Assembly: GCF_006716065.1 (NCBI RefSeq)
Contig: NZ_VFOL01000001.1
Location: 4,650,001-4,714,000, forward strand
Direction: 5' to 3'
Length of the DNA: 64,000 nt
From: Salinispora arenicola
GTDB lineage: Bacteria; Actinomycetota; Actinomycetes; Mycobacteriales; Micromonosporaceae
In this document: piece by piece, positions 53,665-64,000 of the stretch
How the letters are laid out: each line of letters opens with the position of its first letter
Position numbering within the stretch: position 1 is the stretch's first letter
Notes under the pieces: model-generated
What the model was told of the DNA's origin: nothing
Database searches by the model: none
What the model saw: the letters and a program-made list of their open reading frames with translations, nothing else
Position numbers and translations under genes: made by a program

Positions 53665-54125
53665 GCGAATGATGATCTCAGAACGACCGCGTGACTCGAT
53701 GCCCGAAACGCCTCGGCACGGTCGATGACCTCGTCAGGAATCTGCGCCTCCTGCCATACGCCTCGAGAGCCACCGGTGGCACGTCGGGCCTACTCTGTGC
53801 ACGTTGGAGCGATCGGAGTTCCGTCGTTGCGACGCGGCCGCCTTCGTGTTCACCCACCTCTCAGTGGCCCAGGGGTTTCTCGGTGTCGTGCCGCGTAAGC
53901 ACATCCCGTTCTGCCTTCCGTTGAGCCGCGGTGGCTGGGCAGGCCAGTCAGGGGTGTTCGATCCGCGCCGGGTGCCGATCGGGGCACCCTTGCCGGGTGC
54001 AGGTCCGGCATGCCGGCGACATGGAGCATGCCGTCGAGGGTCGTTTCGTCAGCTCACCGGCGGACCGCCAAGTCGAGCATCGCGGTGACTGTGGCCGAAA
54101 GAGTCAAGAGTCTGTCGTTGCCGCC
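53665..54125. promoter_or_regulatory. Divergent region between exporter and regulator
   Basis: About 460 bases with no supported gene and no recognisable Zur box. Should contain the promoters of the MFS exporter and of the regulator-led operon; the regulator start itself is uncertain. Confidence 0.4.
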
Positions 54126-55169
54126 ATGGGGGCCGGAATACAGGCTGTGATTGTGTCAAGACGACGAGTTGTTGTGGTGGTCTACCCCGAAGTCCAGGCA
54201 CTGGATGTCACCGGCCCGGTGGAGGTATTCGACACCGTGAACCGGTTCCTGCCGGACCCGGCGGCGGGGTACCGGATCGAGTATGTCTCGGCTGCGGCCC
54301 CCTTGGTGCGTACCTCGGCGGGTTTGATGATCCAGGCGGCGCCGTTGGAGACAGGCGAAGGGCGAATGGACAACCTGCTGGTACCGGGCGGCTGGGGTCT
54401 GGGCCAGGCGCTCGCGGACCACGATCTGCTGTGCTGGATCCAACGGGCCGCGAAACGGGCGCAGCGGGTCACGTCAGTGTGCGGCGGGTCCTTTCTGCTG
54501 GCCGAGGCCGGGCTGCTCGACGGCCGTCGGGCGACGACACACTGGGCGTACTGCCAGGACATGGCCCGGCGATATCCGGCGGTGACTGTCGACCCCGAAC
54601 CCATATACGTGTGGGACGGACCCTACGTGACATCGGCGGGGGTGACTGCGGGAATCGACATGGCCCTGGCGCTGGTGGAGGCCGACCATGGTGCCGAGTT
54701 CGCCCTGGAGATCGCCCGCTACCTGGTGCTCTTCTTCAAACGCGACGGCGGCCAGCCGCAGTTCAGTGGCATGCTGGACGCACAACTGGCTGACCGGGTG
54801 CCGATCCGAACCGCCCAAGAGTGGGTGCGGGCCCACGTCGAGCACCCACTTCCGGTGCCGGAACTCGCCGAGCGGGTGCACATGAGCCCCCGGAACTTCT
54901 CCCGGGTGTTCCGGCGAGAGGTCGGCATGACACCCGGACAGTATGTCGTCCAGACGCGTGTCGGTCGAGCCCGGGAACTGCTGGAGAGTACCGACCTGTC
55001 CATCAGCCAGATCGCCCGCCGATGCGGCTTCGGTCGGGTGGAGACGTTCCTACGGACGTTCGATCGTGCGGTGGGTCTGACGCCGGGAGCCTATCGGCAA
55101 CGGTTCCAGGTCCTGGCACCAGCCGGTCTGCTGATCGAGCCACCGGTAGCGGCGGGGAGCCAGGGGTGA
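54126..55169 (+). CDS. DJ-1/PfpI-AraC (GlxA-type) transcription regulator
   Basis: A 347-residue regulator with an N-terminal class I amidotransferase-like (DJ-1/PfpI) sensor and C-terminal AraC DNA-binding domain. VVVVVYPEVQALDVTGPVE opens the sensor, TSVCGGSFLLAEAG holds the nucleophile-elbow cysteine, and PVPELAERVHMSPRNFSRVF plus ISQIARRCGFGRVETFLRTF are the two helix-turn-helix units. The ATG at 54126 fits the domain border but upstream starts are possible. The stop overlaps the ThDP gene's GTG by four bases, so it leads and probably controls that operon. Confidence 0.88.
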   Translation: MGAGIQAVIVSRRRVVVVVYPEVQALDVTGPVEVFDTVNRFLPDPAAGYRIEYVSAAAPLVRTSAGLMIQAAPLETGEGRMDNLLVPGGWGLGQALADHDLLCWIQRAAKRAQRVTSVCGGSFLLAEAGLLDGRRATTHWAYCQDMARRYPAVTVDPEPIYVWDGPYVTSAGVTAGIDMALALVEADHGAEFALEIARYLVLFFKRDGGQPQFSGMLDAQLADRVPIRTAQEWVRAHVEHPLPVPELAERVHMSPRNFSRVFRREVGMTPGQYVVQTRVGRARELLESTDLSISQIARRCGFGRVETFLRTFDRAVGLTPGAYRQRFQVLAPAGLLIEPPVAAGSQG

Positions 55170-56872
55170 CGGGCCAGGTACGCGTTGTGGATCGCATCGC
55201 TGCGACACTGGCCCGGTTGGGTGTCCGCCACGTCTTCGGCGTCAGCGGCGCCAACATCGAGGACCTGTACGACGCGCTGCGCGGCACCGACGGTGCGACC
55301 TGCGGTGTAGTGGCCAAACACGAGTTCTCTGCGGCCACCATGGCAGACGGCTCAGCCCGCGTCACCGGTCGCTTCGGCGTGGTGTCGACGACCTCCGGCG
55401 GTGCCGCGATGAATCTGGTGCCTGGGCTGGCGGAGGCGTATGCCTCGCGGGTGCCGATGTTGGCCCTGGTCGGCCAGCCACCCACGGCCCAGGAGGGACG
55501 TGGGGCGTTCCAGGAAACCAGCGGTCTGGCGGGCTCGTTCGACGCGATGGCGGTATTCGACCCTGTCTCCCGGTTCTGTGCCCGGGTGGAGGATCCGGCC
55601 CGTATCGACGCTGTCCTCACCGCAGCGATCTCCGCGGCACACCAGGACCCGAAGGGGCCGGCGGTGCTGCTACTACCCAAGGATGTGCAGCAGGCACTGG
55701 TCGACGACTCCCCGAGTCGTGTCCTCACCGTCGCGGCGCCGGCCAGCCCGGCACCGACGCCGGCCCTGGACCAGGCGGCAGCTCTGCTCCGCGAGGCACG
55801 GCAGGTTCTGGTCATCGCCGGTGCGGGTGTGGCCTCGTCGGGTGGCCGACGGGAACTGGATCGTCTGGTGGGGCGCCTCGGCGCGTGGGTGGCGACCACC
55901 CCAGACGCCAGGGATGCCTTCGACAACCGTCATCCGGCATTCGCTGGTGTCGCCGGGGTGATGGGACACGACGCCGTCGGCGAACTACTGCAACGAGCCG
56001 ACCTGTGCCTGCTGGCGGGCACCCGGCTGCCCGCCCTGGCGCGCAACGGACTGGAAGAGGCGCTGGCGGGGATGCCGGTGATCTGCGTCGACCCCGAGCC
56101 ACCGCACATCCCGGGCCTCGCACTGACGGGGTCCCCGCAAGCCACACTGCGCGCCTTGTCGCTGCGTTTGGGCGCTCACCGACGGTTATGCCCGCCTCAC
56201 CCTGGGCCTGTCCTGCTCTCGGGCGGTACGTCGTCCGGGGAGACGCTGAGGGCATACGCCGATGCCCTCCACGTGATCTCCGCCGTCCTGGCGCCCGACG
56301 TTCACGTCTTCGTCGATGCCGGCAATGCGGCTGCGGCCGCGATCCATGCGCTGTCGCCTGCTCCCCGAGGGCGTTTCGTCGTGGCGCTGGGAATGGGTGG
56401 TATGGGCTACACCTTCGGAGCGGGGATCGGCGCGGCGCTGGCCACTGGACGGCGTACGTACGTCCTGGCAGGAGATGGTGCGTTCTATGCACACGGCACT
56501 GAGGTGCACACCGCACTGGAAGCCGCCGCCCCCGTCACCTTCGTGATCTTCAACAACAACGCGCACGCCATGTGCGTCACCCGCGAGGACCTGTTCCAAG
56601 GCGGCGCCAGCGGCGTCAACGCCTTCCGGCCGTCGGACATCGCCGCCGGTGTATCCGCGATGTTTCCCGGTCTTCGGGCAACCCGCGCCAGCACCGCGCC
56701 CCAGCTGCGCGCGGCCCTGCTGGCGGGTCAGGCCGGTGGCGGTCCGGCTCTCGTGGCCATGGACTTCGATCCCGCTGAACTACCGCCGTTTCGTCCGTTC
56801 CTGGCCGCGGGCCAGGCACCCGTCAACAACCAGGAGGGTGATCATGACGACCGCGCCGTCCACGTTGGCTGA
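55166..56872 (+). CDS. ThDP-dependent enzyme (acetolactate synthase/decarboxylase superfamily)
   Basis: A 568-residue thiamine diphosphate enzyme that would form a carbanion from a 2-oxoacid and either release an aldehyde or ligate it to a second carbonyl. Seen: catalytic Glu53 in VAKHEFSAA, the central domain with LVIAGAGVASSGG, and the ThDP motif AGDGAFYAHGTEVHT through FNNNAHAM near residues 434-465. The FAD-binding pattern of true acetolactate synthases is not obvious. GTG start with GGGGAG seven bases upstream, overlapping the regulator stop. It overlaps the SRPBCC gene by 29 bases. The substrate is unknown; C2-unit transfer or benzoylformate-type decarboxylation are both possible. Confidence 0.86.
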   Translation: MTGQVRVVDRIAATLARLGVRHVFGVSGANIEDLYDALRGTDGATCGVVAKHEFSAATMADGSARVTGRFGVVSTTSGGAAMNLVPGLAEAYASRVPMLALVGQPPTAQEGRGAFQETSGLAGSFDAMAVFDPVSRFCARVEDPARIDAVLTAAISAAHQDPKGPAVLLLPKDVQQALVDDSPSRVLTVAAPASPAPTPALDQAAALLREARQVLVIAGAGVASSGGRRELDRLVGRLGAWVATTPDARDAFDNRHPAFAGVAGVMGHDAVGELLQRADLCLLAGTRLPALARNGLEEALAGMPVICVDPEPPHIPGLALTGSPQATLRALSLRLGAHRRLCPPHPGPVLLSGGTSSGETLRAYADALHVISAVLAPDVHVFVDAGNAAAAAIHALSPAPRGRFVVALGMGGMGYTFGAGIGAALATGRRTYVLAGDGAFYAHGTEVHTALEAAAPVTFVIFNNNAHAMCVTREDLFQGGASGVNAFRPSDIAAGVSAMFPGLRATRASTAPQLRAALLAGQAGGGPALVAMDFDPAELPPFRPFLAAGQAPVNNQEGDHDDRAVHVG

Positions 56873-57503
56873 CATTCCGGGTCTGATCCGGGTGGAAACC
56901 ACGACCCCGGCCGATCTCACCATCCGGTGCGCGGAGATGACCCGCGATTCCTATCCGCACCAGCAGGTGTACGGCACGTACTGCACGATTCACCAACACG
57001 TCGACTGTCCGCCGGAGGCGGCCTTCGACTATCTGCGGCAGGGTCACCACCTCGAGGAGTGGACGTTCAGCCTGCGCGAGTTCGCTTACACCAGCACGCC
57101 CGGGCTGTGGCAGGGCGACGACCGACTTGCCCCGAACACCCGGATCTTCGGCCGAGTAGTGGCCAACGCCGACGCCATGACCGTGGACTACCACTGTGCC
57201 TGGGACCAGGGCGACACCCTATGGATGATCTATCTCATGCGGGTCGTGCCGGCATCGTTGGTGCTCGGCCGGCCCGGCTCGCTGATCACCTGGACCAACT
57301 GCCGCCACCCACACTACGTCCGCAACCCCCACCCCTCGTTGACTCCTGGCCCCGAGCGGCCCTGGGTCGGCGACTACTGGGACCTCTTCTATGCCGGGCA
57401 CACCATCGAGATGGGTAACCTCAGGGCGATACTTGAGCACCGGCACCGCAACGGTCTCGCCATCAACGTCCCCCCGGCGCCCGCGCAGTCGGTGACGCCA
57501 TGA
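56844..57503 (+). CDS. SRPBCC-like protein of ThDP/KAS III operon
   Basis: A 219-residue protein with an SRPBCC-like central part (TIHQHVDCPPEAAFDYLRQG then EEWTFSLREF, around residues 48-80) and an unusual His/Trp-rich C-terminal half (WTNCRHPHY, WVGDYWDLFYAGH). I do not recognise a specific family. The many histidines could bind metal. AGGAGGG is well placed before its ATG although this lies inside the ThDP gene, and it overlaps the next gene by four bases. Fixed overlap on both sides implies the three proteins work together, perhaps as a cyclase or aldolase-like partner on the ThDP/KAS III product. Confidence 0.75.
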   Translation: MTTAPSTLADIPGLIRVETTTPADLTIRCAEMTRDSYPHQQVYGTYCTIHQHVDCPPEAAFDYLRQGHHLEEWTFSLREFAYTSTPGLWQGDDRLAPNTRIFGRVVANADAMTVDYHCAWDQGDTLWMIYLMRVVPASLVLGRPGSLITWTNCRHPHYVRNPHPSLTPGPERPWVGDYWDLFYAGHTIEMGNLRAILEHRHRNGLAINVPPAPAQSVTP

Positions 57504-58522
57504 CAGCGGCCGTCCGGCTCCGAGACGTCGCCGGCCACCTTCCCGGGCCGCCCGTGCCGGCGTCGTTCTTCACCGAATACCCGCAGGCGCAGGACGAGCT
57601 CAGGAACAGCCCCATGTTCAAGGTTCCGTCGCTGCGCCACCACGTCACCGACGGTGAAACCAACGTCGATCTCGTGGAAGAGGCCGTCGCGTCGCTCGTC
57701 GATCGGTGGGGCCGGGACGAAATCCGTGCCGTGGACGTCCTGCTCATGCACAGCCAGCTACCGGAAATCCCGTTCGTCGGTGCTGCGGGCGAAGTGGCTC
57801 AGCGGCTGGGTCTGCGCCCTTCATGGGTGATCGATGTCGCCAATGCTGGTTGTGCGTCCTTCGTGCACATGCTGCAGTTGGCCCGGCAGATCCTCGTGAC
57901 GACCGATGCGCGGCGGGCGCTGATCTGCAACGCACAGACCATGGCCGGCCAGTTGTTCACCCAGTCCCGAGTGCGTGGCCTCGCCCAGGCGGCGATACCG
58001 GGCGACGGCTGCGGAGTCGCCTACCTGACCACCGGTGCCAGCGGTTCCTGTGTGCTGGGGCTGCGGGCACATCACCTGGCGGCGTATGCCGGGCAGATGC
58101 GGCTGGAGCGCGAGGACGGCCGCAGATACTGGGAGGCCGGCGACGGGCAGCCGCGTGTTGGTTTCTCGATGGACGGCGTCGCCGCTGTCCTGGAACGGGG
58201 GAACCGCCTGGTACCTGCCGTAGTGCGTGACGTGTGCCAGGAGGTGGGTGTCACCGGTGCCGACATCGACGTCCTGATCACCAATCAGCCCAACAGGACG
58301 TTCCTGCGCACCTGGCGCGAAGCCCTCGGGCTGCCTGCGGAGCGCCATCCGGATACCTTCGACCGGTACGGCAACCTTTTCGGCGCGGCGATGCCGATCA
58401 CCCTCGACGATGCCGCCGCCACTGGTCAGATACCTGATGGTGCCCTGGTCGTTCTTGGCGGCTTCGCCCACGCCGGTGACTACGCTGGCGCGGTGGCGAT
58501 CCGGTGGGAGGGGCGTGGTTAG
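57500..58522 (+). CDS. KAS III-like condensing enzyme or acyltransferase, His replaced by Asn
   Basis: A 340-residue thiolase-fold protein of the FabH/KAS III group. The acyl-accepting cysteine is Cys118 in VANAGCASFVH. Where FabH has VPHQAN the sequence reads ITNQPN (Asn262), so the catalytic histidine is missing; the later Asn292 in RYGNLFGAA is kept. A Cys-Asn-Asn set is atypical for decarboxylative condensation and suggests acyl transfer or other chemistry, as in CerJ-like KAS III acyltransferases with modified triads. The ATG overlaps the SRPBCC stop (ATGA). It ends the four-gene operon. Confidence 0.85.
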   Translation: MTAAVRLRDVAGHLPGPPVPASFFTEYPQAQDELRNSPMFKVPSLRHHVTDGETNVDLVEEAVASLVDRWGRDEIRAVDVLLMHSQLPEIPFVGAAGEVAQRLGLRPSWVIDVANAGCASFVHMLQLARQILVTTDARRALICNAQTMAGQLFTQSRVRGLAQAAIPGDGCGVAYLTTGASGSCVLGLRAHHLAAYAGQMRLEREDGRRYWEAGDGQPRVGFSMDGVAAVLERGNRLVPAVVRDVCQEVGVTGADIDVLITNQPNRTFLRTWREALGLPAERHPDTFDRYGNLFGAAMPITLDDAAATGQIPDGALVVLGGFAHAGDYAGAVAIRWEGRG

Positions 58523-59098: not shown

Positions 59099-59839
59099 AT
59101 GAACGATCCGTACGTACAGTCAGCCGAGTACATGGACCTCCTGATCGCCGATGCGTGGGGCCTCTTCGCCCCCGGACTTTCCGAGGCCCTGCGCGGCCTC
59201 GGCGGCGAAACCGGCGTCACGGTGGACCTGGGCGCCGGCACCGGGCGTGGCGTCGCGGTGATCTGCGCCAGCCTGCCCGATGACTCGCCGGTGCTGGCCG
59301 TGGAGCCCTCACCCGCACTCCGTGCGGTGCTCCTTGCTCGAGCGCACGAGGACGAACGCCTGAGCTCACGTGTGACGGTCTCGTCGGCCGACGCGTTGGG
59401 CGTGCCGCTGCCCGACCGGGTGCGGGCGCTGGTGGCGATGAACATGATCGGCCACTTGTCGCCGGGCGACCGGCATGAACTGTGGCGGCGTATTGTCCCG
59501 CGCCTGGTCCGCGGGGGCTGTGTGGTCGTCAACCTCGCTCCGCCGACGCGTCCGGCCGGAGTCCCGAGAAGCCGAATGGCCAGCCGCAGCGTGGGCGACC
59601 TGACCTACGAGGGTTGGGCGAGCGCCGAGGCCGTCGGCGAACAACAGATCAGATGGCACCTGACCTACCTGACCCGGTCGTCGGAGGGGTCAACGGTGTC
59701 GGAGGTGGCCGTGGACTACGACTGGTGGGTCATGAACGAGGCGGAGCTGCGCGATGAGCTTGCGGAGCACGGGCTGACTACGCGGCAAATCGGGCATCCC
59801 GACGCCAGCCTGTACGTCGCGACCCGCCTACAGAATTGA
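59099..59839 (+). CDS. Class I SAM-dependent methyltransferase
   Basis: A 246-residue small-molecule methyltransferase. VTVDLGAGTGRGVAVI at about residues 40-55 is SAM motif I, VLAVEPSPALR motif II, and LVAMNMIGHLSPGDR covers the region of motif IV. GAGGAAGAC precedes the ATG. It is 111 bases upstream of the NRPS on the same strand, with a Zur box between them, so it may be a tailoring enzyme with its own zinc-responsive promoter. N-, O- or C-methylation cannot be distinguished; thiazoline siderophores often carry N- or C-methyl groups. Confidence 0.87.
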   Translation: MNDPYVQSAEYMDLLIADAWGLFAPGLSEALRGLGGETGVTVDLGAGTGRGVAVICASLPDDSPVLAVEPSPALRAVLLARAHEDERLSSRVTVSSADALGVPLPDRVRALVAMNMIGHLSPGDRHELWRRIVPRLVRGGCVVVNLAPPTRPAGVPRSRMASRSVGDLTYEGWASAEAVGEQQIRWHLTYLTRSSEGSTVSEVAVDYDWWVMNEAELRDELAEHGLTTRQIGHPDASLYVATRLQN

Positions 59840-59858
59840 ACGCTGCCCCAGTTTGAAT

Positions 59859-59873
59859 TGGGAATCATTTTCA
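59859..59873 (+). promoter_or_regulatory. Zur box upstream of NRPS
   Basis: TGGGAATCATTTTCA matches 13 of 15 positions of the palindromic Streptomyces/Mycobacterium Zur consensus TGAAAATCATTTTCA. It sits 77 bases before the NRPS ATG in an AT-rich patch within otherwise GC-rich DNA. No IdeR/DmdR1 iron-box pattern is visible. Predicts repression in zinc-replete cells. Confidence 0.7.
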
Positions 59874-59949
59874 ACTAGGGTCTCCGGTGCGCCGGCCGCC
59901 GGCCACCCGGCGGCGCGCTCCACAAAGCCGTCGCAGCTACGGAGACCGG

Positions 59950-62900
59950 ATGAACCTGCCCCTGATGCCCGAAGCGGTCCTCGACGACGTACTCGACTGC
60001 ATCGCCGAGGTCCTCGGCACGGATCCGGGGCTGATCGATGTGGAAGCACCACTGACAGCCCTGGGTCTGGAGTCGTTCACCGCCGTACGGCTCCGCCGGC
60101 GGATCCGGGAGCGCACCGGACACGACCTTCCGCTGACCGCGTTCCTCGACAACGCCACCGCGACGCGCCTCGCCCGGCACCTGTCGGAAGTCCCTGGGAG
60201 GCCAGCTGGCACCGCTGAATCCAGCGAGCAGCGCGCCGACGGGCAGCCGGGCGGCCGGGCGGCCTTCCCCTTGACTCCGGTCCAGGAGTCCTACCTTGTC
60301 GGGCGGGAGTCAGGCCTGGTCCTCGGCGGGGTGGCCACCTTCTACTACTACGAGTACGACCGGGTCAGCGACGACGCCGCCGCCGACCTCCAGCGGCTCG
60401 AAGTCGCCTGGAACCAACTGGTCGACCACCACCCGATGCTACGGATGGTGGTCGACCAGCGTGGCCGTGGGGAGATCCTGCCCACGGCCGGTCCCTACCG
60501 CATCGGCGTCACCGACCTGCGAGGCGCCTCACCCGCACAGGTGGACGAGTCGTTGGCCACGCTCCGGCACGAACGCTCCCACCAGGTACGCCCAACCGGG
60601 CAGTGGCCGTTGTTCGACCTGCACGCGGCGTTCCTACCCGATGGTCGTACCCGCCTCTACATCGGCTTCGACGTGCTGATCACCGACATGGCCGGATGGA
60701 TGCTGCTGATGCGGCAGTGGGGACAACTCGTCGCCGACCCGACGACATCCCTGCCCGAGCCTCCCGCCGAGTTCGCCGACCTGCTGCACGCCCGGGAGAC
60801 GGATCTGGAGTGGACCCAGCGGCGGGAACGGGACCGCGCCTACTGGGCAGCCCGCGTCGCCGAGCTTCCTCCAGCGCCACGCCTACCGGTGACCCGTGCC
60901 GCCGAGTCCACCGTGCCGCCCCGCTTCGCGCGGCACCCCGGCCAGCTCGACGTGCAGGCCTGGCGGACACTCCGCACCCGGTGTACCGAGCACGGGGTGA
61001 CAGCGACCGCCGCGTTGCTAGCCGCGTTCGCGGTGATCCTCGAGCGGTGGGGCGCCGGCGAGCAGGTCTGCCTGAACACCACCCTCTTCGAGCGTCCGGA
61101 GAAGCCCGAGGGTATCGACCTGGTGGTGGGCGACTTCACCACCACCGCGTTGGTAGGTACCCCGAGAATCGACCCGGCCTCGTGGAACGGATTCGCTGGT
61201 TACGCATCGGAGCTCAACCGTCGCTTTTGGGAGGACCTGGACCACCGGTCGGTCTCCGGAGTTGATGTGCTGCGGGGGCTCAGCGACAGCTCCGGTGCCC
61301 CGCCCTACCCGGTCGTCTTCACCAGTGGGGTAGGACTCGCCGGTGACGGCACCGCGGCTCCGGCGAGCTGGCTTGGCGCGGAGGTCTTCGGCGTCTCGCA
61401 GACCCCCCAAGTGCTGCTCGACCATATCGTGTGGGACGAGGACGGCGTACTCCGAATCGCCTGGGACGGTGTCGTTGACGCCTTTCCCGACGGCTATCTG
61501 CGCAGCATGCTCGACGCGTACGTCCGGCTGCTGCACCGCCTCACCGAGGCCAGCGCGTGGAAGGACCCGAGACTCGCCTGGGATCCCTTCGTCCTGCCCA
61601 TGGAACCGTTGGACGTCGACCCGTTCCCTGATGCCGGCCCGCTGCTGCACGACCCGGCGACCAGCATCGCCCGCCGTATGCCGGAGAAGCCGGCCCTGTA
61701 CGCGGGGGGCGCCGTTACCTCGCACGGCCGGTTGGCCGAGGGCGTCGCCGCGACCGCTGCCGCTCTTGCCGCCGCCGGTGTCGGTACCGGCGACCTGGTG
61801 GCGGTCGCCTGCGAGAAGGGGCTGGCCCAGGTCGTCGCGGTCCTGGCGGTCAACGCCGCCGGCGCGGGCTACCTGCCGGTCGAGCCGTCCTGGCCGGATG
61901 CCCGGGTGGCCACGATCTGTGCCCGCGCTGGAGTGCGGCATGCCCTGGTGGGCCGGGGTGTTCGGACCACGTGGCCCGAAGGCGTGTCGACGCACCGCCT
62001 GACCGCAGCCGGCCGGCCCGGCCGCCGATCACGGAAGAGTGTCTCCGAACCAACCCCACCGCCATCGCGACCCGGCCCGGATGCCACCGCATACGTCATC
62101 TTCACCTCCGGCTCCACGGGGCAGCCGAAGGGCGTCGAGATCCAGCACCGCGCCGCCCGCACCACCATCGACGACATCGCCGACCGCTTCGGCATCCACG
62201 CCGATGACCGGGTGCTGGCGCTATCCGCGCTCAGCTTCGATCTCTCCGTCTTCGACATCTACGGCGTTCTCGGCGCGGGCGGGGCGCTGGTCCTGCCCGA
62301 CCCGGCCCGGCAGCGCGATCCGCAGCACTGGCTGGAACTTGCCGAGCGGCATGGCGTCACGGTGTGGAACACCGCCCCCGCACTGTTGGAGATGCTCGTC
62401 GAGTACGCCGAGATCGAGCCGGAGGTCGCGAGCCGGGCGCTGCGCAACCTACGGCTGGTGATGCTCTCCGGCGACTGGATTCCGTTGACGCTGCCCGAAC
62501 GATTGCGTCGACTTGCCCCACAGGCGCGGGTGATGAGTCTGGGCGGTGCGACCGAGGCGTCCATTTGGTCGATCACCTACCCGGTGACGGACGTCGCCCC
62601 GGGGTGGCGGAGCATCCCCTACGGCCGGGCGTTGCGGGCCCAGTCCTTCCACATTCTCGACCCGGACGGCGGGCCGTGCCCGGTGGGTGAGCCGGGGGAA
62701 CTGTTCATCGGCGGCGATGGGCTCGCCCGGGGATACATTGGCGATCCGGAGCAGACGGGGTATCGCTTCGCCCGGCACCCGCTGTTGGGTGAGCGGCTGT
62801 ACCGCACCGGAGACCTGGGACGCTGGCGGACCGACGGAAACATCGAGTTCCTGGGACGCGTCGACCGGCAGGTCAAGATCCGCGGACATCGGATCGAACT

Positions 62901-63936
62901 CGGTGAGATCGAGGCCGCGCTCGGTCGGCACCCGGCCCTGCGGCAGTGCATCGTGGCCGCGGTACGTGGTGCCGACGAGCGCCCCCGCTTGGCCGCCTAC
63001 GTGGTGCCGAAGGGGGGAGATGTCGTCCCGACCGCCGACGAATTGGCCGGGACGCTGCGCGAACGGCTGCCCGACTACATGGTTCCGAGCAAGTTCCTTG
63101 TGCTCGACTCGCTGCCGGTCACCCCGAACGGCAAGATCGACTACGCGGCACTACCCAATCCGTACCAGGCGGGGGACGCCGACGTGCCGCCACGTCACGC
63201 GACGCTCTCGCCGCCCGCGTCGCCGGTAGTTCCCCCGGTCACGTCCGCCCCACGCTTCGTCGACTGGGCCGGTACGGCGGTGGCCGAGGCGGAGGCACTC
63301 GGCCTCGAGGTCGCACTCGTCGTCCGCCCGGGGCGAATGTCACCGGCGCAGGCCCTCGTCGCGGCGACGCGCTGGCTCGACCGGGTCCACTCGGCAGGCG
63401 CCACCGCACTGGTCGAGCGGATCCCCGCTGACGGCCTCATCGAACTCGCTCAGCGGACCACCGACCCAACACGCCTCGACGCCCTTCCGCCAGCTCCACA
63501 GAGCACGCCGGCCCCACAGAGTGTGTCGGTCGCCGAACCGGCAGCAGCCGCGCTGAACCGGACCGGGCCGGAGCCTGCAGGTCACCCGGTCGCCGATGGT
63601 TGTACCGCTGATCCGGCCACCACCGACGCGGTCATCGCGGTCCTTGCAGACCTGACGGGGGAGCCGGTTCGAGCGGACAGCGCATTCGCCGCGCTGGGCG
63701 TGACCTCGCTCACGCTGGTGCTGACGCACCGCAGGCTGCGGGAGAGCATTGCGCCCCAACTCGTACTCGCGGACATGTTCGGCCATGCCACGGTGGCCTC
63801 CCTCGCCGCGCACATCACCACCTTGACCACGGCGAATAACACCCAAGCACTCGGGCCGTCGGCCGCTTCGGTGCCATCGGCCCGACGCTCGTCCCGGCTG
63901 GCCGCCCGTACCCGCGCTCAGGAGGTGGACCGGTGA
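59950..63936 (+). CDS. NRPS: aryl/acyl carrier - heterocyclization - adenylation (Cys) - carrier
   Basis: A 1328-residue assembly-line protein. Order: carrier (about 5-75, Ser in LGLESFTAV near 41), heterocyclization Cy domain (about 100-540, signature DVLITDMAGW near 240 for DxxxxD), adenylation (about 570-1060, TSGSTGQPKG near 718), an unassigned 110-residue linker, and a second carrier (about 1200-1275, Ser in LGVTSLTLV near 1251). The A domain shows SFDLSVFDIYG, VWNTAP, LSGDW and GGATEASIWS, giving the cysteine code DLF-N-LS-L-IW. It should therefore cyclise cysteine onto a starter acyl group, making a 2-substituted thiazoline as in yersiniabactin, pyochelin and coelibactin. No salicylate-activating gene is in view. 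GGAG precedes the ATG. Confidence 0.92.
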   Translation: MNLPLMPEAVLDDVLDCIAEVLGTDPGLIDVEAPLTALGLESFTAVRLRRRIRERTGHDLPLTAFLDNATATRLARHLSEVPGRPAGTAESSEQRADGQPGGRAAFPLTPVQESYLVGRESGLVLGGVATFYYYEYDRVSDDAAADLQRLEVAWNQLVDHHPMLRMVVDQRGRGEILPTAGPYRIGVTDLRGASPAQVDESLATLRHERSHQVRPTGQWPLFDLHAAFLPDGRTRLYIGFDVLITDMAGWMLLMRQWGQLVADPTTSLPEPPAEFADLLHARETDLEWTQRRERDRAYWAARVAELPPAPRLPVTRAAESTVPPRFARHPGQLDVQAWRTLRTRCTEHGVTATAALLAAFAVILERWGAGEQVCLNTTLFERPEKPEGIDLVVGDFTTTALVGTPRIDPASWNGFAGYASELNRRFWEDLDHRSVSGVDVLRGLSDSSGAPPYPVVFTSGVGLAGDGTAAPASWLGAEVFGVSQTPQVLLDHIVWDEDGVLRIAWDGVVDAFPDGYLRSMLDAYVRLLHRLTEASAWKDPRLAWDPFVLPMEPLDVDPFPDAGPLLHDPATSIARRMPEKPALYAGGAVTSHGRLAEGVAATAAALAAAGVGTGDLVAVACEKGLAQVVAVLAVNAAGAGYLPVEPSWPDARVATICARAGVRHALVGRGVRTTWPEGVSTHRLTAAGRPGRRSRKSVSEPTPPPSRPGPDATAYVIFTSGSTGQPKGVEIQHRAARTTIDDIADRFGIHADDRVLALSALSFDLSVFDIYGVLGAGGALVLPDPARQRDPQHWLELAERHGVTVWNTAPALLEMLVEYAEIEPEVASRALRNLRLVMLSGDWIPLTLPERLRRLAPQARVMSLGGATEASIWSITYPVTDVAPGWRSIPYGRALRAQSFHILDPDGGPCPVGEPGELFIGGDGLARGYIGDPEQTGYRFARHPLLGERLYRTGDLGRWRTDGNIEFLGRVDRQVKIRGHRIELGEIEAALGRHPALRQCIVAAVRGADERPRLAAYVVPKGGDVVPTADELAGTLRERLPDYMVPSKFLVLDSLPVTPNGKIDYAALPNPYQAGDADVPPRHATLSPPASPVVPPVTSAPRFVDWAGTAVAEAEALGLEVALVVRPGRMSPAQALVAATRWLDRVHSAGATALVERIPADGLIELAQRTTDPTRLDALPPAPQSTPAPQSVSVAEPAAAALNRTGPEPAGHPVADGCTADPATTDAVIAVLADLTGEPVRADSAFAALGVTSLTLVLTHRRLRESIAPQLVLADMFGHATVASLAAHITTLTTANNTQALGPSAASVPSARRSSRLAARTRAQEVDR

Positions 63937-64000
63937 ATACGACCGAGAACCCTGACGAGTCGTTGATCGCCGTCACCGCGCTGGACTGCCGGTTTCCCGG
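63933..64000 (+). CDS. Polyketide synthase, ketosynthase start only (cut by window edge)
   Basis: The first 22 residues of a type I PKS. SLIAVTALDCRFPG is the usual opening of a ketosynthase domain. The GTG overlaps the NRPS stop and AGGAGG lies six bases before it, so the two are made together. An NRPS-to-PKS hand-off after a thiazoline is the arrangement of yersiniabactin-type lines. The rest lies outside the window. Confidence 0.85.
   Translation, partial: MNTTENPDESLIAVTALDCRFP

Follow-up and report, generated by a model that had tools for sequence, protein, structure and literature searches.

A predicted Zur-controlled NRPS-PKS gene cluster of yersiniabactin type, a probable zincophore pathway, in Salinispora arenicola

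The DNA considered here is a stretch of 64,000 nucleotides from the marine actinobacterium Salinispora arenicola (NCBI RefSeq assembly GCF_006716065.1, contig NZ_VFOL01000001.1; hereafter the window), which represents bases 4650001-4714000 of a genome consisting of a single contig of 5,632,046 bases. At its right end begins a gene cluster for a hybrid assembly line of nonribosomal peptide synthetase (NRPS) and polyketide synthase (PKS), and the first NRPS gene is preceded by a palindrome that resembles the binding site of the zinc-responsive repressor Zur. The domains of the line are abbreviated as A (adenylation), Cy (heterocyclization), PCP and ACP (peptidyl and acyl carrier protein), KS (ketosynthase), AT (acyltransferase), KR (ketoreductase) and TE (thioesterase). 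Positions above 64000 continue the count of the window, and the sequence was followed to genome position 4785999. The locus is composed as follows:

59099-59839, plus strand: MT1, free-standing methyltransferase dependent on S-adenosylmethionine (Pfam Methyltransf_25), 246 aa from the ATG at 59099, start approximate
59853..59858, plus strand: probable -35 element TTGAAT (TTGA invariant in 13 aligned promoters)
59859-59873, plus strand: Zur-type box TGGGAATCATTTTCA, located within the 17-bp spacer of the predicted -35/-10 promoter
59876..59881, plus strand: probable -10 element TAGGGT (TAnnnT invariant in the same 13-promoter alignment)
59950-63936 (ATG 59950), plus strand: NRPS1, ACP-Cy1-A(Cys)-PCP, 1328 aa, by its carrier, condensation-type, AMP-binding and carrier domains
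59986..60183, plus strand: starter carrier of NRPS1, motif GLESF (Pfam PP-binding, aa 13-78)
60241..61569, limits approximate, plus strand: heterocyclization domain Cy1 of NRPS1, DVLITDMAG, nearest solved relative Irp2
61669..63135, plus strand: adenylation domain of NRPS1, code DLFNMSLIWK, uninterrupted by a methyltransferase or epimerase domain
63607..63804, limits approximate, plus strand: second carrier of NRPS1, motif LGVTSL, from the motif and the two PP-binding stretches in NRPS1
63933-70664 (genome 4713933-4720664), running beyond the window edge at 64000, plus strand: PKS, KS-AT-KR-ACP-Cy2-TE, 2243 aa, by domain scan
70681-72234: family-5 solute-binding lipoprotein (SBP)
72231-73187 and 73184-73978: two permeases
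73978-75522: fused double ATPase
75507-76889: MT2
76886-78301: MT3
78298-80310: NRPS3, PCP-Cy-PCP
80391-81374, minus strand: thioredoxin reductase (TrxR)-like protein, divergent from Sacc
81359-81373: second Zur-type box TGACAATAGTTATCA, between the TrxR-like and Sacc genes, matching the znuA-type core at 10/10 positions
81413-82528, plus strand: Sacc, saccharopine-dehydrogenase-like protein

The first-pass annotation, made from the letters of the window, had pointed to a 13/15 match to the Zur consensus, and the match is as described: TGGGAATCATTTTCA differs from the quoted consensus TGAAAATSATTTTCA at two positions and is the sole site in the window with three mismatches or fewer, with an expectation of 0.02 and such a site in 2 of 100 shuffled sequences. 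The available parts of the work on Streptomyces coelicolor give the Zur motif of that species, built from 172 Zur-bound regions, as tGaNNatSatNNtCa with 11 specified positions, and a 21-bp actinobacterial (znuA) motif whose core TGaNAANNNTTNtCA has 10 (PMC5472717); the NRPS1 box agrees with 10/11 and 9/10 of these, respectively, missing one in each. In 13 aligned promoters, which had been selected for holding the box, the core AATCATTTTCA is invariant and forms the main conserved block besides the promoter hexamers and the start-codon region. Since it is flanked by an equally invariant TTGA and TAnnnT at promoter spacing, the box would occupy the 17-bp spacer, where a repressor would be expected to bind, and a promoter around it whose spacer is filled by the box is plausible.

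Across the genome, 24 sites have three mismatches or fewer to TGAAAATSATTTTCA, versus 1 for the reversed pattern, and four of them have two mismatches. Three of the latter stand before NRPS1, before the operon of an energy-coupling factor (ECF) transporter (1977758) and, at 3866940, before a gene for a COG0523-type GTPase that has an L28 gene divergent from it, and the fourth (296778) lies within a long open reading frame (ORF) and was set aside as chance. The surroundings were inspected for eight of the other genome sites, where sequence had been fetched; among the sites with three mismatches is a znuA box at 2882210. In family scans the GTPase was MRF/ZigA-like, the ribosomal protein L28 and the solute-binding protein of the zinc type (AztC/AdcA/ZnuA), with the GTPase and the zinc-binding protein scoring below the curated cut-offs. 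The more general palindrome YGRNAAYNRTTNYCR occurs 12 times in the genome versus 6 times in the control, and six of the 12 sites have AAT in the left half, namely those at the znuA, GTPase/L28, ECF importer and NRPS1 promoters, the cluster's other site and one at 2243828 that is richer in G+C. The ECF operon itself (L029:883-4358) encodes two S components of the MptD family and, with the Zur-type box ahead of it, is a candidate for an additional part of the response to zinc starvation.

The box recurs in front of related clusters. We compared 33 loci (the window, 26 named loci and six further genomes) over the 140 bases before NRPS1, or over the divergent gap of 256 bases for G084, with 3724 control stretches that came from the window and the named loci and were mostly coding. 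The znuA-type core was present within one mismatch at 25/33 loci versus 7/3724 controls, and the S. coelicolor motif, likewise within one mismatch, at 17/33 versus 13/3724. Sixteen of the 25 core sites lie at -89 to -98, three from Nocardia at -64 to -77 and that of G084 at -148, and five Nonomuraea loci have their one-mismatch site at -36 to -54 and a two-mismatch site near -97. At the other promoter, a palindrome similar to the second box occurs in all eight of the divergent TrxR/Sacc intergenic stretches shown, with one mismatch to the core at most by reading. As a prediction, Zur-type control of the cluster is well supported.

Domain scans bore out the NRPS with heterocyclization and cysteine-specific adenylation domains that had been proposed behind the box, as well as its yersiniabactin-like order of starter carrier, Cy, A-Cys and carrier, followed by a PKS that begins at 63933. 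Extension to the right, suggested at the same time, revealed two more Cy domains, a TE, a complete ABC importer and the second Zur-type box. The A-domain code DLFNMSLIWK, which varies little among relatives, is one that we take to be of the cysteine type. Cy1, kin of Irp2, retains the motif DxxxxDxx[S/G] in 31/31 rows and Cy2 both Asp residues in 30/30, and the active-site motifs of KS, AT and TE are intact in 30/30. In the Cy domain of NRPS3 the first Asp of DxxxxDxxS is replaced in 20/20 rows (19 times by Ser, once by Asn), a position at which its best solved relatives, EpoB and BmdB, have Asp. In comparisons of sequence with solved structures, MT3 was closest to the methyltransferase chains of CurJ, DisA and AprA, and MT2 to 5wmm, an entry listed under NRPS that is presumably the methyltransferase-interrupted A domain of TioS. 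The TrxR-like protein was nearest to 4ntd, a listed thioredoxin reductase that we take to be HlmI, then to 4fk1 and DepH, with GliT further down. A structure of Sacc predicted from five close relatives reached a mean pLDDT of 47.8 and was left out of consideration.

Among named organisms, Salinispora vitiensis and S. oceanensis have the closest relatives of NRPS1, with 91-92% identity over the first 577 residues, and the core genes are common to Salinispora, Streptomyces, Nonomuraea, Lentzea and Nocardia as well as to other genomes from the family of S. arenicola. Among 14 extended regions (the window's included), some of which end early and which vary in gene order, relatives of NRPS1, PKS, MT3 and NRPS3 were found in 14, of MT2 in 13, of MT1 in 12 (not always adjacent to NRPS1), of TrxR in 11 and of Sacc in 10 (one partial); the best PKS match in Nocardia spans KS-AT only. 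The SBP has relatives in 11/14 regions, plus one match of 27%, and importer and assembly line then stand in one gene run. Outside the core genes, ORFs that passed a filter (at least 110 aa, third-position G+C of at least 0.72, E 1e-12) were common to two of the 14 regions at most. The cluster is rare: with three candidates scored per genome, NRPS3 was detected at E 1e-110 in 1/396 phylum-wide genomes, namely the S. arenicola genome studied, and with four scored per genome, the NRPS1 fragment reached at least 52% identity in 8/300 family genomes, the studied one included. NRPS3 was present in all 30 of the cluster-bearing genomes searched for it, of which S. vitiensis was probably counted twice. 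Elsewhere in the S. arenicola genome (2906000-2938000; L034, L035) there is a second large NRPS cluster, with Cy-like domains 36-38% identical to the NRPS1 fragment and no site with three mismatches or fewer to TGAAAATSATTTTCA.

The question arises with which starter the line is loaded. That no salicylate module was visible in the window holds for the genome, in which no salicylate synthase (YbtS/Irp9) scored over the cut-off and three chorismate-enzyme matches are read by us as TrpE, PabB and PhzE-type, and it extends, with exceptions, to the relatives. A synthase over the cut-off was found in 5/30 cluster-bearing genomes, on contigs other than that of NRPS3, and was absent from 25/30. A match to the ligase that forms dihydroxybenzoyl (DHB)- or salicyl-AMP was obtained at E 1e-110 in 14/30 genomes and in none of the other 16, S. 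vitiensis and S. oceanensis among these. Such a ligase (YbtE) is not in the conserved gene set of the 14 regions, in a comparison that kept the best match for each region; in 11/13 other regions this best match was the A domain of NRPS1 itself, in S. tropica it was a separate match, and in Strep_549 there was none. Ligases do lie near the cluster in single strains: in G304 (S. blattellae) a DHB/salicyl-AMP ligase about 14 kb before NRPS1, and in S. tropica a 30% ligase-like match about 6 kb before it. In view of the lack of a conserved synthase or ligase and of any widely shared flanking ORF, the starter is apparently not supplied by a conserved salicylate pathway beside the cluster.

Several neighbours were considered as loader or supplier and rejected. 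Neither a ligase-like gene located some 22 kb downstream, which is the match at E 1e-110 in the studied genome (genome 4754417-4756045; 515 bits, below the curated cut-off), nor the adenylating enzyme with a P450-like part that follows Sacc in opposite orientation (82551-85379; 150 bits to the salicyl/DHB-AMP ligase model) was seen beside the cluster in relatives. The latter opens a minus-strand group at 82551-97490 (L010, L011) that, by reading, also holds several ketosynthase-like proteins and a CoA-transferase-like one and resembles a biosynthetic cluster in its own right. Ahead of MT1, consecutive genes at 53931-58522 encode an AraC/DJ-1 regulator, a thiamine pyrophosphate (TPP) enzyme, a protein that reads as SRPBCC-like and a ketoacyl synthase (KAS) III-like protein that has NQPNR, and thus a replaced His, where FabH has HQANxR. 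As a core starter supply they were discarded, as the TPP, SRPBCC-like and KAS III-like proteins have no relatives in the other stretches examined and the AraC regulator has one only in L063 (45%); they may be a strain-specific addition. Another protein, KAS III-like by reading and 50% identical between Lentzea (L084) and G030 (L095), adjoins NRPS3 in those 2/14 regions only and might load the starter there.

From our point of view, the locus is best read as a zinc-repressed metallophore cluster of the yersiniabactin/coelibactin type, and probably a cluster for a small, sulphur-rich zincophore, to which we assign a probability of roughly three in four; Zur binding, zinc as the ligand, the structure and the uptake are all predicted from sequence. 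When zinc is plentiful, zinc-loaded Zur would sit on the box between the -35 and -10 elements of NRPS1 and on the second box, that of the TrxR/Sacc intergenic stretch, and thereby block transcription, and when zinc is scarce, the hybrid line would be produced. The starter on the first carrier and a cysteine joined by Cy1 would yield a thiazoline, the PCP-Cy-PCP protein NRPS3 would add a second cysteine, KS-AT-KR-ACP would add malonate and reduce the keto group, and Cy2 would bring in a third cysteine before TE releases the product. This order is provisional and derived from yersiniabactin; the carriers and Cy domains equal those of the yersiniabactin line, which points to starter-Cys-Cys-malonate-Cys. 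Methyl groups may come from the free methyltransferases, one resembling a PKS C-methyltransferase and one an NRPS-embedded methyltransferase, and the metal complex would be re-imported by the ABC importer with the family-5 SBP. One could further speculate that the Cy domain of NRPS3, without its first catalytic Asp, adds its cysteine without ring closure, that the resulting free thiol of a salicylate-free zincophore is a zinc ligand, and that the widely conserved CxxC flavoenzyme (kin of HlmI, DepH and GliT) interconverts thiols and disulfide, a switch by which the product would bind zinc outside the cell and give it up inside, an idea that we regard as a long shot.

Several observations weigh against a zinc-repressed zincophore cluster. 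The core with at most one mismatch was not found in 8/33 promoters (L053, L054, L055, L062, L068, G298, G030, G289). L062 retains a site at -99 with two mismatches. Relative to TGAAAATSATTTTCA, L054 has a three-mismatch and L053 a four-mismatch site just ahead of MT1, and the G030 region is without any site of four mismatches or fewer. The loci also share ancestry, so that they cannot be counted as independent events. Nor do all clusters have the importer, as the Lentzea and G030 regions are without a cluster-type SBP and L055 has MT2 directly after the PKS, without an importer. Since yersiniabactin-like molecules bind iron and copper too, a Zur box is no proof of zinc as the main ligand, and since the genome encodes four Fur-family proteins, a sister regulator could own the box.

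The latter possibility, in which another member of the family (e.g. a relative of FurA, Nur or CatR) uses the box and the product has its role with another metal or in responding to stress, seems quite improbable to us: the box fits the published Zur motifs, and the same palindrome precedes znuA and the pair of L28 and ZigA-like GTPase genes, with znuA and rpmB-type genes given as Zur targets in S. coelicolor in the accessible text of PMC5472717. An iron siderophore cluster like that of yersiniabactin, in which the Zur box adds zinc control to an iron chelator, is unlikely. It would agree with the carrier and Cy inventory, the same as that of yersiniabactin, and with the S. tropica copy, probably one of the 'sid' clusters of a species cited as having a yersiniabactin locus. 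Against it stand the recurrence of Zur-type boxes at two promoters in relatives, the 25/30 genomes without a salicylate synthase over the cut-off, and the lack of an iron box: iron instead of zinc control had been named as what would speak against the zinc prediction, and no IdeR/DmdR-like box was seen, the best match to the consensus having 10/19 mismatches, the commonest value in random stretches. Very unlikely, in our estimate, is an antibiotic or signal cluster in which zinc control is incidental and the ABC system imports something else. There is no known product, the importer is missing from some clusters, and the TrxR-like protein, nearest to 4ntd (presumably HlmI), is also related to DepH and GliT, enzymes of disulfide natural products; however, importer genes and assembly line share a single gene run in 11/14 regions when the SBP is taken as the marker, and typical metal ligands are found among thiazoline NRPS-PKS products as a class.

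Few bacterial zincophores have a known structure, and coelibactin, the product of the classic Zur-controlled cluster, has resisted isolation, as far as the available sections of PMC3430247 and PMC10127202 tell. The zincophore reading would place a second, distinct family beside coelibactin, ranging from Salinispora to Streptomyces, Nonomuraea and Nocardia, and it would suggest zinc as the signal for a cluster that has been classed with the siderophores. As most of these clusters have importer genes of their own and Zur-type boxes, growth under zinc starvation would be a direct way to switch the cluster on and to find its product. Should the line begin with something other than salicylate, its product would be an extension of the yersiniabactin scaffold and would test how such a line starts without a dedicated loading ligase.

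The suggestion that the metallophore may be new stands in part. A copy of the cluster (NRPS1 fragment 88% and NRPS3 91% identical) lies at 2.97-2.99 Mb in a genome that we take to be S. tropica CNB-440. From the order of locus tags, not from coordinates, it is probably the orphan cluster sid2 of S. tropica, entered with product NA beside the orphan clusters sid3 and sid4 in the part of PMC7888443 available, and the foxicin paper (PMC5318452) refers to Udwary 2007 for the presence of yersiniabactin in S. tropica. A putative S. tropica zincophore pathway with two P450s at Strop_2825/2829, mentioned in the accessible text of PMC3430247, is by tag number probably a different locus. The cluster itself is therefore not new, but its predicted zinc control and the absence of a conserved salicylate supply are, and no paper on its zinc control was found in the open-licence literature searched. 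At the level of compounds, with the gene clusters left aside, there is a likeness to transvalencin A from Nocardia, a thiazolidine zinc complex, and to the uniformides, of which uniformide A holds zinc, these compounds having several five-membered heterocycles (PMC11364655, from the sections available); a difference is that they carry an aromatic ring.

With the myxobacterial sorangibactin pathway (srb), which requires the saccharopine-dehydrogenase-domain protein SrbE and methyltransferases, the cluster shares such a protein and free-standing methyltransferases, whereas sorangibactin starts from salicylate and involves an Irp3-like reductase as well as a P450, with no PKS described in the passages accessible of PMC10127202. 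The coelibactin cluster of S. coelicolor (SCO7676-7692) is Zur-repressed (PMC5472717), includes a saccharopine-dehydrogenase-domain protein (PMC10127202) and has the P450 CYP105N1 (PMC3430247), again according to parts of these sources. Compared by description, both are actinobacterial metallophore clusters with Zur control (predicted here) and a saccharopine-dehydrogenase-domain protein; unlike coelibactin, described as NRPS-made, the S. arenicola cluster has a PKS with KS-AT-KR. The conserved gene set of the 14 regions, compiled without a search by P450 model, includes no P450; the gene adjoining Sacc (82551-85379) reads like a fusion of a ligase with a P450-like part. In ten Streptomyces loci (L125-L134), chosen from the better-scoring Sacc relatives in a search of 295 Streptomyces genomes, Sacc relatives stand beside Cy-NRPS modules in 10/10, with an MT3 relative in 6/10 and an MT1 relative in 5/10. 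These Cy-NRPS clusters look coelibactin-type, and their 20-kb stretches held no znuA-type core within one mismatch.

With yersiniabactin synthetase (HMWP2/Irp2 and HMWP1/Irp1), finally, the S. arenicola cluster shares the inventory of A, Cy, carrier, KS-AT-KR-ACP and TE domains, and Cy1 is closest to that of Irp2. The yersiniabactin line has one Cys-type A domain, three Cy domains, five carriers (one starter, three PCP and one ACP), KS-AT-KR-ACP and a TE. Sacc, the conserved reductase candidate, matched neither Irp3 (YbtU) nor the thiazolinyl-reductase model, with which the genome itself was not searched. The S. arenicola line differs from that of yersiniabactin in being distributed over three proteins, with PCP-Cy-PCP on one of its own, in its free-standing methyltransferases and in its uninterrupted A domain, and the S. 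arenicola-type cluster has no conserved salicylate synthase or loading ligase; one of its Cy domains, that of NRPS3, carries Ser for Asp, and a Zur-type box takes the place of the iron box.

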